Positions 3,433-25,143 of a stretch of DNA of 28,698 nt are shown here, in pieces; within the stretch, counting starts at the first letter, position 1; every line of letters begins with the position of its first letter. This DNA is from a virus. A model generated the notes under the pieces. It ran no database searches, was not told the origin of the DNA, and worked only from the letters and a program-made list of their open reading frames with translations. The stretch is from positions 1 to 28,698 of IMG/VR virus record IMGVR_UViG_3300006166_000573; one strand, given 5' to 3'. Made by a program: the position numbers and the translations under genes.

Positions 3433-3764
3433 GAAGTTCACCTATAAGCCCTGTTGAAGTAGAAGATAATATTATTCGACTTGTTGATGAATTAGAAGAA
3501 CACACAGAAGCCTTTGAGGTTCTTGCCGTAGACCAATCCAAGAAAGAGGCTAAATACAAGTCTGCTTGGGCACACGAATACCTTTCCGCTAATGGCTCCA
3601 TAAAAGAACGTGAATCGTGGGCTGACTACAAGCAAGCCGACCAACATTATGAGGTAAAAATTGCTGATGCACTGTTGAAAGCAAAGAAAGAAAAATTGAA
3701 CTCTATTCGCACAGCGTTGGATTCTTTACGCACTCTCGCCGCAAATGTAAGGGCACAAGTATGA
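3429..3764 (+). CDS. Phage helical (coiled-coil) protein of unknown function
   Basis: 111 residues, nearly all helix-forming, with heptad-like Leu/Ile/Val spacing and no cysteine. The pattern of an N-terminal VEVEDNIIRLVDELE helix and a C-terminal SIRTALDSLRTLAANVRAQ helix recurs in many actinophage proteins located beside recombination genes; their function is not established to my knowledge. It overlaps by four bases both the HNH nuclease upstream and the ParB-like gene downstream. Likely a small multimeric accessory protein; that is inference from the coiled-coil character. Confidence 0.75.
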   Translation: MRSSPISPVEVEDNIIRLVDELEEHTEAFEVLAVDQSKKEAKYKSAWAHEYLSANGSIKERESWADYKQADQHYEVKIADALLKAKKEKLNSIRTALDSLRTLAANVRAQV

Positions 3765-4486
3765 AACATAAAATAAGTCCAGATTTAGAAAACCTACTTA
3801 CCCCTATAGAACAACTAGAAACACTTCCGGGTAATCCACGTAAAGGAAACATAAAAGCCATTGCCGCTTCATATGAAGAATTTGGGCAAGTTAAACCAAT
3901 AGTCGCCGTTGAAAATGAAGATGGCACAGGAACTGTTATTGCAGGCAACCATCAATTGCAAGCAGCGAAAGAACTCGGATGGACACACATAGCAGTGTTG
4001 CACGTTCCTTTTGACCACGACAAAGCCATTGCTTTTGCATTAGCCGACAACAGGACTTCCGATTTAGGAGAAGACGATCAAACACTTCTTCACGACATGT
4101 TGATGTCTGTTGTAGACGAACGACCAGATTTTTTTGAAGGACTCGGATGGGATGATTTTGAAATCGCAACAATAGAAACTCCTACCGCTGGATCTTCTTC
4201 TGCCGTGATTCCAAACGATGGATGGACTCCTCCAATTATGCAGATACCCGGAACAGATATAACAGATGAAACACAAAAATCAATGATTACTCAAGGCGCC
4301 ACTGCTATAGATTCAGCAGGCGCAAAAACAAATATTCAATACACGCTTGTATTTAATGCCGCAGAACAGCAAGCAACTTGGTATGCCTTCTTGCGATACC
4401 TGAAATCAAATCCAGATTTTTCTGTATTACCTACAACAGCAGAACAAATAATTGCCTTTATAAATAAACAAATTACTTTGGAGTAG
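3761..4486 (+). CDS. ParB/Srx-fold nuclease-like protein
   Basis: 241 residues. Residues about 14-100 match the ParB N-terminal fold: an LPGNPRKG box, a conserved GQVKPIVA strand, then VIAGNHQLQAAKELGW, which occupies the place of the ParB GxxR motif, with Gln instead of the usual Arg. The C-terminal part (about 185-241) is a separate domain of the kind found in phage ParB-like proteins (QYTLVFNAAEQQATWYAFLR). In phages this fold occurs as a DNA-binding or nuclease module, often paired with methyltransferases, rather than in partition. Last gene of the leftmost + operon; its end overlaps by 14 bases the convergent gene that follows. Confidence 0.82.
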   Translation: MKHKISPDLENLLTPIEQLETLPGNPRKGNIKAIAASYEEFGQVKPIVAVENEDGTGTVIAGNHQLQAAKELGWTHIAVLHVPFDHDKAIAFALADNRTSDLGEDDQTLLHDMLMSVVDERPDFFEGLGWDDFEIATIETPTAGSSSAVIPNDGWTPPIMQIPGTDITDETQKSMITQGATAIDSAGAKTNIQYTLVFNAAEQQATWYAFLRYLKSNPDFSVLPTTAEQIIAFINKQITLE

Positions 4487-6112: not shown

Positions 6113-7264
6113 ATGCCACGAAGACGCCTTTTTTTAGATATGACAGTTGTGGAAGCGGCACAACAACGGATGGAACATGTGTATGACACCTTCGATACCG
6201 TCTGTGTTCAGTTTAGCGGTGGAAAAGATTCTTCCGCAGTTTTGCTTTTGGCTAAAGAGATTCACGAAAAGCGTGGTCTTGGTCCAGTAAAAGTAATCTT
6301 CCGAGACGAAGAAATGGTCTCCCCCGCCGTAGTCAAATATTTGGAATGGGTTAAAGATTTAGACTGGGTTGACATGGAATGGTATGCCTTGCCATATGGA
6401 CAAGAAGTTTGGGTTTTAGGACGCAGAGAATACGTTTTACTTTGGTCAAAAAAACGACAAGAAGAAGGTCGACTTGTAAGAGAGATTCCTCCATGGGCTA
6501 TTACAGCCCAACATTTTGGACTAGACAACAATAGGGTTATGCCCCAACCAGTGGATTACTACACAATGCAGGGCAAAGAAGGAAGAGTCGCTTTCCTCAC
6601 AGGAGTTAGAGCGAACGAATCGATGATTCGCTACCGTTCCGTGGTTCAAAAACTGCATGAGAATTACATCAATCGCCCTTACCGACTAAGCAAGGCAATA
6701 CCGTTGAGGCTGGTGAAACCAATTTATGATTGGACTACAGATGATGTTCTCAAATATGCGGCAGAACACGATTTCCCATATTGCGAATATTATGATCTTG
6801 CCGCCATCTCTGGCGCCAATACGAGAGTTGGCATTCCATTGCATTCAGTAGCGGCTCGCAGGCTAAACGATGTGGTTGTTACAGAACCCGATTTCTACGA
6901 TTCTTTATACAATGCTTTCCCTCATATCGACGCTCAACGAAGGTTATGGGCAGATTTTGATGTGGAAAGTTTAATCAATTCATATTCTGCGGATAAATGG
7001 GATGGTGTTCGCCGTTGTATTAATGACAACATGCTCTCGCCGGGAAAACATAAAGATGCAATGAAGTTTGCAGCCGAATTTAGAAAAAAACGAACAAAAG
7101 ATGCCTTTGGGTATCCCATAGATCACTTGATTCGCACCTTGCTGCTAAATGAATTTCGCCATACAGCACCATCACCTGTTGGTCCTAAAACAAAAGCACA
7201 TAGAATGAGAATGGCTGCTATAGCAGACGCAGACGATTTAGATAAAATGGATGACCTATTATGA
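6113..7264 (+). CDS. PAPS-reductase / PP-loop ATPase family protein (IbrA-like)
   Basis: 383 residues. The PP-loop SGGKDS is at residues 35-40 after a hydrophobic strand (TVCVQF), as in the PAPS reductase/DndC/IbrA superfamily, which activate substrates by adenylation. GVRANES (about 165-171) corresponds to the conserved G-x-R-x-x-ES segment of these enzymes, and KPIYDWTTDDVLKYA is the typical W-x-x-x-DV motif. The C-terminal third is longer than in plain PAPS reductases and is followed, with four bases of overlap, by a ParB-like gene, the same pairing as IbrA/IbrB. Substrate is unknown; sulfur modification of nucleic acid is one possibility. It has its own terminator-promoter boundary upstream. 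Confidence 0.82.
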   Translation: MPRRRLFLDMTVVEAAQQRMEHVYDTFDTVCVQFSGGKDSSAVLLLAKEIHEKRGLGPVKVIFRDEEMVSPAVVKYLEWVKDLDWVDMEWYALPYGQEVWVLGRREYVLLWSKKRQEEGRLVREIPPWAITAQHFGLDNNRVMPQPVDYYTMQGKEGRVAFLTGVRANESMIRYRSVVQKLHENYINRPYRLSKAIPLRLVKPIYDWTTDDVLKYAAEHDFPYCEYYDLAAISGANTRVGIPLHSVAARRLNDVVVTEPDFYDSLYNAFPHIDAQRRLWADFDVESLINSYSADKWDGVRRCINDNMLSPGKHKDAMKFAAEFRKKRTKDAFGYPIDHLIRTLLLNEFRHTAPSPVGPKTKAHRMRMAAIADADDLDKMDDLL

Positions 7265-7770
7265 CAGAACTTTTAAAACCAGAAAATCTTAAAAGACCCG
7301 ATTGGAGAACTACTTATATTCTCAAATCAGATCGTGTTGGATTAACTGTTTCTATTAAATCTTTTGGGATTCTTCAACCAATTTTGACAATGGAAGATGG
7401 AACTATTATTGATGGGTGTGCAAGGTGGGCTATTGCACATGATCTTGAATTAGAAGAAATTCCAGTTAATAGAATTAAATGCACTGTGGGAGAAGCAATT
7501 TTAATTCATATACAAATGAACAGAAGTCGTGGGTCGGTTGTTCCTTACAAATTAAGTCGTTCTATTAGAACCTTGCTTAAAATTATGGGCGACAGAGAAA
7601 TCATGGATGCTCTCAACATGTCAGAAGATGAATTCGACATATTAGAAGATGGAACTCTTTTAAAGAAACGAAAAGTTAAAGAGCATAATTACAACAATGC
7701 TTGGATTCCTATTGAGTCTTCTGCAAGCGAAGACTTTCACATAGAGCGCCCCTCAACACCGGACAAATAA
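7261..7770 (+). CDS. ParB-like protein (IbrB-like partner)
   Basis: 169 residues, starting four bases inside the PAPS-reductase-like gene. Residues about 20-95 show a ParB N-domain: VSIKSFGILQPILTM, then IIDGCARWAIAHDL, in which the GxxR motif is intact, unlike the ParB-like protein at 3761-4486. A helical region with a possible helix-turn-helix (IMDALNMSEDEFDILEDG) follows. The strict coupling to the PP-loop gene suggests one complex, as for the IbrA/IbrB pair. Last + gene before the convergent SNF2 helicase. Confidence 0.78.
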   Translation: MTELLKPENLKRPDWRTTYILKSDRVGLTVSIKSFGILQPILTMEDGTIIDGCARWAIAHDLELEEIPVNRIKCTVGEAILIHIQMNRSRGSVVPYKLSRSIRTLLKIMGDREIMDALNMSEDEFDILEDGTLLKKRKVKEHNYNNAWIPIESSASEDFHIERPSTPDK

Positions 7771-9922: not shown

Positions 9923-10927
9923 ATGGCACACGAATTAGAAATGAACGAAGAAGGGGAAGCCAGTTTTGTGTGGCGCAAAGAAGGTGGAGCGCCATGGCAT
10001 CGACTGGGGAAACCTGTAGCAGGACATCAAACAGCAGAGTCAATTTTAAAAATGGCAAATGCTGACTATGAAGTTGAACTGCTACCTGTTAGATACATCA
10101 CATCTAGTGGCGATTTACTGCCCATGAAAGATCGATTCATTACGGCACGAGTTGACAAAGATGGTGAAACCATTCCATTTGAAGTGGTTAAAGACAGGTA
10201 TCGAATTGTCCAAAATGAAATTGTTTTAGAAAAGGCTTTGAACGTCTGTGGCGCATCAAAAGGTGATGCAGTTATGGATACTTGTGGCGTTCTCAGGGAT
10301 GGTCGTGAATTTTTCGCCACCATTGATTTAGGAACATTAATTATCGACCCATCGGGAATTAACGATGAAATTGGCAGATACCTTGTTGTACACACCAGCC
10401 ACGATGGAACCACGCCTATAACATACGCAAATACTGACATTCGAGCAGTATGTAAAAATACAGTTAGATTTGGTCAAAATGTAGCAAAAGCAGTTATGAC
10501 CGCACGACACACGGCAAACTTCGGCAAAGCCTTAGAAGAAGCCAATCAAGTCCTTCAAATCTCAACCGACTGGGCAAGGTCGTTTAAAGAAACAGCAGAA
10601 AATCTTCTATCGGTTACAATTCCATCCGGTAGCAAGAAAATCGATACTGTTCTTAATGGGCTTTGGCCAGAAAAAGATGCAGATACTGATGGCAAAATGG
10701 CTAATCGAGAAAAGACATTGATGCTTGTTCGTGGATTATTCGTTAATAAAAAGAATGCCGCAGGCTATGGGTATAACGGTTGGAGTTTGTTTAATGCCGT
10801 AGGCGAATACTACGACCATCATTGGTTTGATGATCTTGATCGCAATGCAAAAGCGGCAATGCAAATTGGTAACAAGTCATACCAAATGAAAACAAAAGCA
10901 GCCGATCTAATCTTGGATCTTGTCTAA
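9923..10927 (+). CDS. DUF932 / phage-plasmid-like protein (TIGR03299-like)
   Basis: 334 residues with the family's hallmarks: an early PWHRLGKPV segment (about 24-32), a central VVHTSHDGTTPI beta region, NTDIRAVCKNTVRFG, and a C-terminal AVGEYYDHHW segment near the end. Members occur in many phages and plasmids; their biochemical role is not firmly known, though they travel with recombination and replication genes. First gene of the operon to 12404; AGAGGAAG precedes the ATG and an operator-like palindrome lies upstream. The stop overlaps the phosphatase start by one base. Confidence 0.88.
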   Translation: MAHELEMNEEGEASFVWRKEGGAPWHRLGKPVAGHQTAESILKMANADYEVELLPVRYITSSGDLLPMKDRFITARVDKDGETIPFEVVKDRYRIVQNEIVLEKALNVCGASKGDAVMDTCGVLRDGREFFATIDLGTLIIDPSGINDEIGRYLVVHTSHDGTTPITYANTDIRAVCKNTVRFGQNVAKAVMTARHTANFGKALEEANQVLQISTDWARSFKETAENLLSVTIPSGSKKIDTVLNGLWPEKDADTDGKMANREKTLMLVRGLFVNKKNAAGYGYNGWSLFNAVGEYYDHHWFDDLDRNAKAAMQIGNKSYQMKTKAADLILDLV

Positions 10928-11532
10928 TGTCTGAAGAACTTGACTCCCCGACATGGTGGAGACGACTGTGTGAAGTGACACCTAATTTAGTTTTATCAGG
11001 TGACCTGCATCACGACGAAGATAAAGCCATTATTCAAATAGAAGAATGGCGATCAATGGGCATTACCCATGTTATTGACTGTCGCAATGAGTGGTCTGAT
11101 AAAGAATTGGTTGCTACAAATGCACCTGAAATTACATATCACGAACACGGTACACACGACAGTGGTGGTGATCAGGAACAAGAATGGTATGAAACTGGTT
11201 GGTACTATTACACTCAAGCATTATTGGACAACCCAGATGCCAAAGTGTTAGTGCATTGTCACATGGGCGTCAACCGTGCTCCAAGCCTTACTTTTTTCTT
11301 ACTCGTTATGGCAGGTCATGGTGCAAGCCGATCATTAAGAATGATTCGCAACGCGCGTCCTATTGCGGCTTGCTACTACGCAGAAAGCGCATGGAAGGCG
11401 TACAGCAAAATGATGTCATCGTCTAGAGATGAAACAGATATGGGCATTTGGGACATAGAAGCATTTTTTTTAGAAAACGAAATTGACCTTACTGATGTAA
11501 TTCATAAAATTAGATTGGTGGAGCATGTCTAA
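10927..11532 (+). CDS. Dual-specificity protein phosphatase
   Basis: 201 residues. The signature HCxxGxxR-type loop is VHCHMGVNRAPSL with His110, catalytic Cys111 and Arg117, as in cysteine-based dual-specificity phosphatases. A strand ITHVIDCRNEW at about 46-56 and Asp78 in HGTHDSGGD, a plausible general acid, complete the fold. The C-terminal 40 residues are an acidic extension not usual in the family. Phage enzymes of this kind could reverse host or phage phosphorylation or dephosphorylate RNA ends; the substrate is not evident. Starts within the DUF932 stop and overlaps the next gene by 8 bases. Confidence 0.85.
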   Translation: MSEELDSPTWWRRLCEVTPNLVLSGDLHHDEDKAIIQIEEWRSMGITHVIDCRNEWSDKELVATNAPEITYHEHGTHDSGGDQEQEWYETGWYYYTQALLDNPDAKVLVHCHMGVNRAPSLTFFLLVMAGHGASRSLRMIRNARPIAACYYAESAWKAYSKMMSSSRDETDMGIWDIEAFFLENEIDLTDVIHKIRLVEHV

Positions 11533-16030: not shown

Positions 16031-16037
16031 AGTGGTC

Positions 16038-16949
16038 TTGCTTTCAAAAATTACAGCCGGAATAGTCATAACTATTTTAGCGTGGACGGCTTCCTGTTTT
16101 GGGGGCGAAGAAAATACAACATTTGGAGTAAGTGGACTTTCTCTGTCTTCTCCTACAACGGTTCTTAGCGTTTTATCTAAAGAAGAACCAATTCAAACAA
16201 CTACAACAAGCATTCAAGCATCTGTAGTAACTGTTCTTACAACTACGACAACAACAACATTAAGTGTTGGCACATATAAAGAAGGAATAGATACAGAACT
16301 TAATGAAATGTATGAAGAAATGGTTGAACAAGTATTGGAGACCGAATACTCTTTTTATTCTCGCGGTCCTGAGATTAAAATTCTTCAAGAAGCATTAGGA
16401 CTAGAAAAGGTGGACGGCATCTACGGACCCGCCACCCGAGGTGCCCATCTAGAAAGTTTAGGAGGACCATTAGCGGCAATCCGTTTATGGTACCCATCAG
16501 ACTGGGGCGAAGAATTACATGAATATTATCCTCATTATCTAAACGAAGAAGAAGATCCTTATTGGCATGGAACGGGATGTGAAGGTCGCTTGCCCAATCC
16601 ATACACTTGTGATCGCTTGCCTACGTTAGATGATTTGATTAGAACTTATTTCCTTCCCGAAGATCGTGCTTGGGCTTTTCGCGTCGTTTTTTGCGAGAGT
16701 TCAGGGCAACCCGATGACGTATTCAACGAGGAAATTAGTAGCGCTCTTGCCGTAGGTTGGTTCCAGCACTTGAAAAAATACTGGGACACGGGTTATCGTA
16801 AGGGTCGTGCGTGGGATGCAGGATTTGGTGGATATTCCATTTTCGATCCAATCGCCAATGTTGGCGTAGCCGCACATTTATTTTATACATCAGGGGCACA
16901 TCATTGGAACCCCTCTAAACACTGTTGGAGGAACACACCACATGGGTAA
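16038..16949 (+). CDS. Exported lysozyme/transglycosylase-like protein, possible lipoprotein
   Basis: TTG 16038 is preferred to GTG 16032 because GAGAGGAG (16025-16032) is then properly spaced. 303 residues: a hydrophobic signal region (3-19) ending in TASC, where Cys20 could be lipidated though the -3 residue is atypical; a Thr-rich linker (about 54-75); a peptidoglycan-binding-like stretch (SRGPEIKILQEALGLEKVDG, 108-127); and a C-terminal lysozyme-like domain with VVFCESSG (probable catalytic Glu220), AVGWFQHLKKYW and FDPIANVGVAAHLFYTSG, the order seen in transglycosylases. It would cut peptidoglycan outside the membrane. It may serve lysis, or be made on infection to alter the wall. Confidence 0.78.
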   Translation: MLSKITAGIVITILAWTASCFGGEENTTFGVSGLSLSSPTTVLSVLSKEEPIQTTTTSIQASVVTVLTTTTTTTLSVGTYKEGIDTELNEMYEEMVEQVLETEYSFYSRGPEIKILQEALGLEKVDGIYGPATRGAHLESLGGPLAAIRLWYPSDWGEELHEYYPHYLNEEEDPYWHGTGCEGRLPNPYTCDRLPTLDDLIRTYFLPEDRAWAFRVVFCESSGQPDDVFNEEISSALAVGWFQHLKKYWDTGYRKGRAWDAGFGGYSIFDPIANVGVAAHLFYTSGAHHWNPSKHCWRNTPHG

Positions 16950-22887: not shown

Positions 22888-23039
22888 GTGTCATGTCCTT
22901 TCAGACCTACCCATCTGCCCTTGTATGCTCTTATCATTTATCCTTTAGTATCCCATCTACCTTTTGACATGCCATGACTTGTAACATGTACCGTTATTGC
23001 TCTCATGGCGAGCGTTTGTATCTATGTGTCGATAGTCAC
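22888..23039. other. Non-coding stretch before the GHKL unit
   Basis: A pyrimidine-rich segment (many CCTTT, CATCT and TATCC runs) with no gene that I can support. It ends in the promoter of the next unit. An ATG at 22974 is in frame with the next protein but would add a Cys-rich 35-residue head and lies upstream of the promoter. Confidence 0.5.
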
Positions 23040-23071
23040 AGGTTGGTTTTTGTATACAACCACGATAGAGT
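23040..23071 (+). promoter_or_regulatory. AGGTTG-type promoter, leaderless start at 23079
   Basis: ACAGGTTGGTT with TTGGTT at 23043-23048, 17 bases, TAGAGT (23066-23071), then seven bases to ATG 23079. Nearly the same sequence occurs at 25197-25229. It drives the membrane protein, GHKL-HExxH fusion and acidic protein. Confidence 0.65.
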
Positions 23072-23078
23072 GGTATGT

Positions 23079-23315
23079 ATGAAACTTACATATATAGAAC
23101 AATTAACTTGGATTGCTTGGGGCATCATAGGAATGCTTGGAGGTATACCTGTCGGATTACGACTCAGGTCTTACCTTGACAACCGAAAGTCTCAACGCAT
23201 CACATTACCTAAGTGGAATGGATCTTTCCTTTCCAAAGAAACACCTGACACGGATCAGATTCGTATCATAGGAACAGTCGATGATGAAGCAACAGAAGAA
23301 ACGGAAACACGATGA
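23079..23315 (+). CDS. Small single-pass membrane protein, 78 aa
   Basis: ATG 23079 is chosen because it stands seven bases after a -10 box. Residues about 8-28 (QLTWIAWGIIGMLGGIPVGL) form one membrane segment, followed by Arg residues (LRLRSYLDNRKSQR) that would keep the tail in the cytoplasm, then an acidic C-terminus (TVDDEATEETETR). The stop overlaps the GHKL-HExxH start (ATGA at 23312-23315), so the two proteins are likely made together and may interact, with this one tethering the ATPase at the membrane. Confidence 0.65.
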   Translation: MKLTYIEQLTWIAWGIIGMLGGIPVGLRLRSYLDNRKSQRITLPKWNGSFLSKETPDTDQIRIIGTVDDEATEETETR

Positions 23316-24832
23316 CTGTTAAAGATTTAGACATTCCGATAAGGGATAAAGAAGAACGACCTACAGTAACCATGAGCGACGAATGGATTCAAGTAGACCT
23401 TGAAGGATTCGGTCAATTGATGGCATCACGCCCAAAGGTATCTATCGTGTATGACCTATTGCAGAATGTGTTCGATGAGGATGCGTCTACTGCAACGGTG
23501 ATACTGCAATCTATTGATGGATCGTTGGCTCGACTCATCGTAGAGGATGACAGTCCTGATGGGTTCCATGACTTGTCCGATGCTTACACGTTGTATCAAC
23601 CTTCCAAGAAGAAGGGTGATCCTACTAAGCGTGGACGTTTCAATGAGGGTGAGAAGTATGTGCTGTCACAATGTGAGAGTGCGAAGATTAGTACCACCAC
23701 AGGTACTGTGCATTTCACAGCAGAGGGTCGTCTTGTTACTGACAAGTATGGTCGAACAGAGGGTTCGATATTCGATGCCATCGTGCGACTTACACCTAGA
23801 GAAGTGTCAGAGATCCTTGCCGATTTGGAACGCGTGCTGATACCAGAGGGTATTACCGTTTCCATCAATGGGCGAGTAATTGATAGCGTGACGCCGGTCG
23901 AAGAGATAGAACTCATATTGCCTACTGTGACATCAGAGGGTGATCAGAACGGTGTGATGCGACCTACTAGACGCAAGACAACAGTGCAGATCATGCACGT
24001 ACAATTCGACGAGCAGAAGCCTCATCTGTATGAGATGGGTATTCCAGTAGTCGAAGTGGACACGCCTTGGAACATCAACATTCAGCAGAAGGTGCCTTTG
24101 AATCGTGACCGTGACAATGTTACAGAAGGTTACAAGAAGGTACTCCTTCCTGCCGTATTGGAAGCAACATGCGACCTATTGACAGAACATGAGATAGCAG
24201 AAGCATGGGTTACAGAAGCAGTTGCTCATACTGATGAAGAGACCGTTAAGAACATAATGGACATTCGACATGGCGAGGGTTGGGTTATAGGTAGTCCGAG
24301 AGATCGGGAAGCAGATAAGAACGCCATCGCACATGGGAAGCAAGTTGTGAATGGTGGTACCTACAGTAAAGCAGTATGGAACGCCATCAAAGAGCACAAG
24401 GTTGCAAACCCATCATCAGAGAAGTACTCATTGAAACCTGAGACAAGTGACGGTGATCCATATGAACATGCAAAGTCTACGAAGTTGACTACCGCAGTTC
24501 AGACTTACGTGAAGAAAGCCGCCATGTATCTATTAGACGAGGATCATTTCGAGGTGAACATCTTGGATGATAAGCGTTGGACAGATGCTGTTGCTCGATA
24601 TGGCACACGTCGTATCGATTTCAATTGGCTTGCATTGAGAACATCAGGTTGTTTAAAGTTGGATGCAAAAGCATTTGGCTTGATGCTAGACAATCTGATC
24701 ATTCACGAGTGTGCACACAAGTTTGCGGGCGACCATTTGTCACGAGCATACTGGGAAGCATGCACGATGCTAGGAGCGAAGTTTAGAAATCATCCAACAA
24801 AATGGAAACTAGACCCAATGGAGAAACGATAA
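23312..24832 (+). CDS. GHKL-type ATPase fused to a metzincin-like HExxH domain
   Basis: 506 residues. The N-terminal part matches a GHKL (Hsp90/MutL/MORC-type) ATP site: N-box YDLLQNVFDEDA (47-58, Asn52 binding Mg, Asp48 where Glu is usual), G1 box VEDDSPDG (77-84), and G2 box GRFNEGEKYVLS (108-119), with a flexible KKKGDPTKRGRF lid before it. A transducer-like beta region follows to about 280. Near the C-terminus, IIHECAHKFAGDH gives His465, Glu466, His469 and His475, the HExxHxxxxxH spacing of metzincin zinc proteases. The fusion could be an ATP-driven protease or a switch. I know of no established function. Middle gene of a three-gene unit. Confidence 0.75.
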   Translation: MTVKDLDIPIRDKEERPTVTMSDEWIQVDLEGFGQLMASRPKVSIVYDLLQNVFDEDASTATVILQSIDGSLARLIVEDDSPDGFHDLSDAYTLYQPSKKKGDPTKRGRFNEGEKYVLSQCESAKISTTTGTVHFTAEGRLVTDKYGRTEGSIFDAIVRLTPREVSEILADLERVLIPEGITVSINGRVIDSVTPVEEIELILPTVTSEGDQNGVMRPTRRKTTVQIMHVQFDEQKPHLYEMGIPVVEVDTPWNINIQQKVPLNRDRDNVTEGYKKVLLPAVLEATCDLLTEHEIAEAWVTEAVAHTDEETVKNIMDIRHGEGWVIGSPRDREADKNAIAHGKQVVNGGTYSKAVWNAIKEHKVANPSSEKYSLKPETSDGDPYEHAKSTKLTTAVQTYVKKAAMYLLDEDHFEVNILDDKRWTDAVARYGTRRIDFNWLALRTSGCLKLDAKAFGLMLDNLIIHECAHKFAGDHLSRAYWEACTMLGAKFRNHPTKWKLDPMEKR

Positions 24833-25143
24833 TGGCGAGTAAAGACAGATACACCAGTACCGAAGATGGAATGACAGACCATCTCGACACCATGTGCATG
24901 TCCGTATGTCCATTGACTGTCGAACGAGTGTTCGATGTTCGTTGCTCGTTAGAAGTAGACCATTACGGCGTTCACATAGTGAGTAGCGTTAATGGTGAAG
25001 CAACTATCTGGTATCGCAATTGGGAAGACGAAGACATGGATCAGGACACCTATCGTCTGCCCATTGCAGAAGACAACTGGTTTCCTGAAAGGCGAGCATC
25101 TATAGATGATCTCATTGATTATCAAGCAGGTGCTTCAAAGTAA
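24832..25143 (+). CDS. Small acidic protein of the GHKL unit, 103 aa
   Basis: ATG 24832 overlaps the GHKL stop by one base. The N-terminal segment MASKDRYTSTEDGMTDHL leads into CMSVCPLTVERVFDVRCSLEVDHYG, probably a small beta domain, then an acidic tail (WEDEDMDQDTYRLP). Cys residues (CMSVC and VRC) could bind metal or disulfide. Translational coupling makes it a candidate substrate, regulator or partner of the ATPase. No family recognised. Confidence 0.7.
   Translation: MASKDRYTSTEDGMTDHLDTMCMSVCPLTVERVFDVRCSLEVDHYGVHIVSSVNGEATIWYRNWEDEDMDQDTYRLPIAEDNWFPERRASIDDLIDYQAGASK

Follow-up and report, generated by a model that had tools for sequence, protein, structure and literature searches.

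Can one phage polypeptide be both a GHKL ATPase and a zinc protease, and what would such a protein be for? The question is raised by a gene on the plus strand at positions 23312–24832 of the IMG/VR virus record IMGVR_UViG_3300006166_000573, a 28.7-kb stretch of DNA that is referred to here as the window. The gene, called GHKL-zincin below, encodes 506 amino acids in a reading frame that is open throughout, and the opposite strand, read in that frame, is riddled with stops. A first-pass annotation of the window had noticed the N-box, G1, and G2 motifs of a GHKL ATPase and, near the C terminus, the sequence HECAHKFAGDH with His465, Glu466, His469, and His475, and all of these are present at those residues. 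It had also proposed that the product is an ATP-gated protease or a defense/anti-defense switch, which is reasonable and is still the best reading, albeit one that we infer. On the basis of sequence and structure models, we give a probability of about one-half to a single-chain ATP-gated protease, in which a GHKL clamp controls a zincin, with phages using the protein against the host and cyanobacterial versions acting in immune-type systems.

A query with the window protein alone retrieves a single phage record, 485 kb long and with 37% identity, and six plasmids. Single-sequence scans of the viral and genome collections returned no relatives, and a sequence search of the Protein Data Bank (PDB) gave no match. 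With the alignment of those first relatives as the query, scans of both collections succeeded and yielded 80 viral loci and 32 genome loci. Nearly all relatives are the same full-length, co-linear protein, which public records label as hypothetical or as an ATP-binding protein. The conservation counts given below come from 106 aligned sequences drawn from viral contigs, plasmids, and genomes, and the AlphaFold model and the member counts for Pfam, NCBIfam, and PADLOC use 83 sequences. Invariant in the larger alignment are Asn52, Asp55, Gly84, Gly108, Gly113, Lys115, Phe135, Gly151, Arg221, Glu241, Gly243, Pro245, Gln259, and Arg267.

Structure prediction had been set beforehand as a check on the first-pass annotation, and it returns both a GHKL and a zincin fold. 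The AlphaFold model of the whole protein has a predicted local distance difference test score (pLDDT) of 91 and a predicted template modeling score (pTM) of 0.80. The first ~20 residues are modeled with low confidence and are missing from most relatives, in which the conserved region starts at about residue 22, so that Met21 (position 23372) is a possible alternative start. The GHKL ATPase domain comprises residues about 25–190 (23384–23881). It contains the N-box DLLQNVFD (23453–23476) with the predicted ATP/Mg-binding residues Asn52 and Asp55, the G1 box DDSPDG (residues 79–84, 23546–23563), where Asp80 is kept in 99 of 106 sequences, and the G2 or ATP-lid box RGRFNEGEK (residues 107–115, 23630–23656), where Arg107 and Arg109 are each kept in 105 of 106 alongside the invariant Gly108, Gly113, and Lys115. 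Beyond it lie two further parts that the first-pass annotation did not include. The transducer, residues about 197–290 (23900–24178; LYEMGIPV...QQKVPLNRDRDNV), holds the invariant Glu241, Gln259, and Arg267, the last of which we take, from general knowledge of Hsp90 and topoisomerases, to be a candidate γ-phosphate sensor. The middle domain, residues about 298–372 (24203–24427), has a high-confidence fold in the model and is spanned by the profile alignment to a second GHKL-zincin family that is described below.

The N-terminal part of the model, about residues 22–330, matches Hsp90, MutL, MORC, GyrB, and topoisomerase II structures in the PDB. Hsp90, topoisomerase II, and GyrB are matched with Z-scores of about 15–16, and the ATPase-transducer fragments of topoisomerase II and GyrB align over residues of about 23–330. 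A sequence-profile search of the PDB with the front part of the protein gives sacsin and MutL; among the members, the NCBIfam model for the sacsin N-terminal domain is matched by 67 of 83, and the Pfam families HATPase_c_3 and HATPase_c are matched by 64 and 54, respectively. Judged from the sequence and the predicted structure, the features of the GHKL superfamily are present: the Asn and Asp of the N-box, the glycine boxes G1 and G2, and a Bergerat fold followed by a transducer.

The C-terminal tail, too, is modeled with confidence. Folded alone with its own alignment, the zincin (metallopeptidase-type) domain, residues about 374–495 (24431–24796), reaches a pLDDT of 93.4 and a pTM of 0.87. 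HECAHKFAGDH (24704–24736), arranged as His465-Glu466-xx-His469-x5-His475, would supply the zinc site and the catalytic Glu, and its HExxH begins within a helix (452–468) of the AlphaFold model. The pattern HExxHx5H arose in 18 of 20,000 shuffles of the window protein (about 0.1%). Among the relatives, His465 is kept in 102 of 106 sequences, Glu466 and His469 in 104 each, and His475 in 99, with an intact HExxH in 102; conservation of the HExxH histidines and of Asn52 was the other check set in advance, and Asn52 is kept without exception. The pairing of a GHKL ATPase with a zinc-protease-type domain in one chain, as the first-pass annotation had described it, is borne out, both parts having confidently predicted folds and being strongly constrained.

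The class of the zincin is a different matter. The first-pass annotation had called the motif metzincin-like, with Ala in place of the usual Gly. The Ala is indeed there in the window protein, and just 4 of the 106 sequences have the glycine form HExxHxxGxxH. No conserved Met after His475, of the kind that forms a Met-turn, was found among the invariant or nearly invariant alignment columns. The profile search that the first-pass annotation proposed was answered on the ATPase side by HATPase_c; on the protease side, no M10/M12 family is among the Pfam matches listed for the 83 members, and one member has a marginal match to M64 (E = 0.07). The Pfam families that do appear are YgjP-like in 10 of 83 members (best E = 1.6e-4) and WLM in 5 (1.5e-4), the window protein itself matching neither. 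In a structural comparison of the tail with VIA-align, Wss1 (5xbn) ranks at the top with a modest Z-score of 8.2 over 103 residues at 3.2 Å, the identity being only about 10%. It is followed by the YbeY-type entry 1oz9 (Z = 7.7) and other Wss1 entries (Z = 7.5 and 7.3), with Spartan (6mdx) at 5.9; BepA and selecase/jannalysin rank below the Wss1 and YbeY-type entries. One result points in the opposite direction, toward a metzincin: the sequence-profile search of the PDB with the back part of the protein places astacin-type myroilysin first (E = 0.0018), above WLM/Wss1 (0.08–0.3), and also matches abylysin. Because of the Wss1 structural match, the YgjP-like and WLM matches, and the rarity of the metzincin glycine, we assign the tail with moderate certainty to the small zincins nearest the WLM/SprT/YgjP type, and the metzincin (M10/M12) label is not supported by the glycine, Met, Pfam, and structural evidence.

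The domains have not diverged at the same pace. Mean identity is 0.45 in the transducer, 0.41 in the ATPase, and 0.30 in the zincin, which thus changes fastest, its catalytic residues excepted. Such a pattern fits a protease with changing targets. Two members, L074 and L078, combine an intact ATP site with a degenerate HExxH and are natural candidates for asking whether proteolysis is dispensable.

A mechanism can be proposed from these parts. The GHKL part would dimerize upon ATP binding, with Arg267 in the transducer sensing the nucleotide, and the clamp, as the dimer opens and closes, would control the access of a bound protein, possibly a DNA-associated one, to the zinc site. With less certainty, phages may deploy the protein against host proteins or defense complexes, for takeover or counter-defense, as suggested by the divergence of the zincin, by analogy to rIIA (PMC7824862), and by VcSduA (PMC12137116). 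The protein might then be a protease-tailed analogue of the rIIA-like proteins that join a GHKL domain to a variable tail, and the cyanobacterial and plasmid versions might be ATP-controlled parts of immune-type systems.

A second family of GHKL proteins, found near first-family genes, helps to place the tail. Its genes occur in three large phages (L031:4070-5383, L061:3510-4886, and L081:834-2138, all on the plus strand) and on the minus strand of a Phycisphaerae locus (L095:3053-4390). The proteins beside the first family are 435–459 residues long with HExxH at the end, and large-phage members overall have about 435–500 residues. Comparison of the two families with hhalign gives a probability of 97.8% (E = 1.1e-12) over residues 41–490, with HExxH in register. 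Four pooled neighbor proteins match phrog_6077 in PHROGs (best E = 3.1e-64), in a tally that does not specify which four, and we therefore infer that the second family is probably of the phrog_6077 type. A tblastn search gave 110 phage records with a relative. Like the first family, to which they are related over the full length, many of its large-phage members end in HExxH, but the spacing that follows differs, typically HExxHxxGxDGxxxH. HExxH lies near the C terminus in 28 of 80 viral loci, and the other 52 have the ATPase part only. The six cultured proteobacterial phages that were examined (4MG, PaMx11, Ab18, PWH3a-P1, 1.170.O, and Kashira) encode a second-family protein without HExxH, and that of Moorella phage MTATph1 retains HETLH. 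By its sequences, the second family is built on an ATPase core to which a protease-like tail may or may not be attached; this fits a core with an exchangeable tail, as stated for the rIIA orthologues (PMC7824862).

The bacterial relatives have a distinct setting. A cyanobacterial/alphaproteobacterial clade forms a separate branch with 100% support in the Shimodaira-Hasegawa-like approximate likelihood ratio test on a quick tree, and its cyanobacterial members are 24% identical to the window protein. Genes near the clade members, in associations drawn from a handful of loci, encode a DisA-type cyclase (PF02457, 1.3e-29), CHAT-TPR and TIR-TPR proteins, a small TIR protein, DUF4145, and an Mrr-type restriction helicase. 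Picosynechococcus sp. PCC 7002, a tractable laboratory strain, has a relative on its plasmid pAQ6, where genes for a DisA-type cyclase and for a CHAT protein adjoin it; the Rhodovastum copy is also plasmid-borne and lies near a SIR2-HerA pair. The gene is rare and patchy, being present in 3 genomes of a 386-genome sample of one cyanobacterial phylum, including the query locus's own genome. As a separate observation, in the Picosynechococcus plasmid loci L006, L007, and L008 and in L110 and L114, the gene adjoins either the DisA-type cyclase and CHAT-TPR genes or TIR proteins, in what looks like an undescribed immune gene cluster.

Several observations weigh against an ATP-gated protease directed at the host. 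The window protein by itself has no significant match in Pfam, PHROGs, or NCBIfam. Foldseek with the zincin alone gives only weak matches (best E = 0.1), so that the Wss1 assignment draws on a VIA-align Z-score near 8, which is modest, and on similarly modest Pfam matches. Four of the 106 sequences (L074, L078, L107, and L117) lack HExxH with the ATP site intact in all four, which implies that proteolysis may be dispensable at times; L107 and L117 look truncated or frameshifted. Clustering of neighbors by BLAST and inspection revealed no conserved partner gene in the phage loci beyond near-identical contigs, in crude longest-ORF (open reading frame) gene calls that may miss small or divergent partners. 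The pooled phage neighbors are instead a mixture that includes DNA polymerases, SNF2 helicases, recombinases, a topoisomerase, and an anti-restriction gene. The main rival draws on part of that mixture: GHKL-zincin could be a genome-maintenance enzyme that loads on DNA as an ATP clamp and degrades proteins stuck there, in the manner of Wss1 and Spartan. Wss1 is the best structural match of the tail, and Spartan is matched as well; the GHKL relatives MutL, MORC, and topoisomerases work on DNA; and DNA polymerase, SNF2 helicase, recombinase, and methylase genes are among some of the neighbors. However, those neighbors are heterogeneous and not conserved, the patchy presence and fast divergence of the tail suit conflict better than housekeeping, and the cyanobacterial clade adjoins immune-type effectors. 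We regard this rival as possible but rather doubtful.

The loss of HExxH in four members whose ATP site is kept, as it is in all 106, whereas the tail motif is not, could also mean that the protein is an ATP-dependent chaperone or scaffold, with the zincin fold serving mostly as a structural element or adaptor and proteolysis being incidental; the absence of the zincin motif from most retrieved second-family members points the same way. Retention of the His and Glu residues in 102–104 of 106 sequences, while the domain falls to about 30% identity, is the pattern of a catalytic site, and a chaperone is unlikely. Less probable still is a bacterial-type anti-phage defense gene that is carried on phages and plasmids and acts on competing phages by superinfection exclusion. 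PADLOC models for TmtA match 40 of 83 members (best E = 4.8e-8), and the CHAT, TIR, and cyclase genes next to the cyanobacterial relatives and the SIR2-HerA pair near the Rhodovastum copy are in keeping with such a role. Yet the TmtA E-values are modest and the matches may arise through the shared GHKL domain only, the cyanobacterial clade is distant from the window protein, and the searches made recognized no defense gene in the window. The ATP-gated protease remains our preferred explanation. A more far-reaching version of it, which we put forward tentatively, is that the two related families make up an undescribed and widespread class of GHKL-gated metalloproteases, in which an Hsp90/MutL-type clamp may directly switch a protease of the WLM/SprT type. 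Large phages would direct such an enzyme at host or immune proteins, and bacteria would employ it within cyclase-CHAT-TIR immune-type systems.

The window itself carries phage-type genes for an exonuclease, a glycosyltransferase, a PAPS reductase, an SNF2-type helicase, and a primase/helicase, and it also encodes ParB_N domains and a DNA methylase; no tRNA was found in its 28.7 kb. Immediately upstream of GHKL-zincin, an ORF at 22974–23315 on the plus strand, with one possible membrane segment, ends in a TGA that overlaps the start codon (ATGA). Upstream genes of this kind, noted in the window, L041, and L104 as a candidate membrane partner, are not clearly enriched (5 of 29 against a background of 12%). 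Downstream, a plus-strand ORF at 24832–25143 begins at a TAATG overlap and encodes 103 residues of no known family. Neither ORF is conserved as a neighbor of the gene. Elsewhere, the window encodes two separate ParB_N-like proteins, at 3761–4486 and 7261–7770 (E = 5.9e-6 and a sub-threshold 1.2e-4), and a phage-borne dual-specificity phosphatase-like protein at 10927–11532 whose match to PF00782 is at the cut-off. A true metzincin motif, HEIGHTWGLAGH, is found in a different protein of 673–680 residues in two other loci (L010:1387-3429 and L012:1413-3434). The homologous window gene at 16032–16949 and the copy in L009 are without the part that bears this motif, which indicates that closely related phages have gained or lost the metzincin-motif domain.

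The first-pass annotation had known of no phage system with GHKL and HExxH in one chain, and we likewise found no description of a GHKL-metallopeptidase fusion in the literature searched, in which subscription journals are incompletely covered, so that absence is not proof; a survey of GHKL-MORC proteins does not mention peptidases (PMC2292703). Sacsin, Hsp90, MutL, and MORC have the N-box, G1, G2, and ATPase fold in common with GHKL-zincin. Wss1 and Spartan are structural matches of the tail, Wss1 being the best, and share HExxH with it, and some relatives match the WLM and YgjP-like Pfam models, but sequence identity in the structural alignment is only about 10%. To our knowledge, none of the former ATPases has a zincin tail, and neither Wss1 nor Spartan has a GHKL ATPase. 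The closest precedents are rIIA, a GHKL domain with a variable tail, and VcSduA, a GHKL domain with a nuclease. The mechanism of rIIA-like GHKL proteins is poorly understood, and no zincin tail is reported for T4 rIIA or its jumbo-phage counterparts (PMC7824862). The viral fold matches of GHKL-zincin include rIIA models with low template modeling scores (about 0.3–0.4), a likeness at the GHKL level only, and we do not claim membership in rIIA. The protease tail that some second-family members retain and others lack, on a shared ATPase core, would offer a handle on rIIA-like proteins. VcSduA, a Shedu protein with an N-terminal GHKL domain, also joins this ATPase to a C-terminal effector enzyme, and its GHKL domain is hypothesized to control the nuclease as a dimer clamp (PMC12137116); unlike GHKL-zincin, its effector is a PD-(D/E)xK nuclease rather than a protease, and it is a bacterial defense gene. 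The pAQ6 relative, beside its cyclase and CHAT genes, makes the idea of a gated protease directly testable. Bacterial ATP-driven proteolysis is usually built on AAA+ machines, and an enzyme in which a GHKL clamp gates a protease within one 500-residue chain would differ from them in design.
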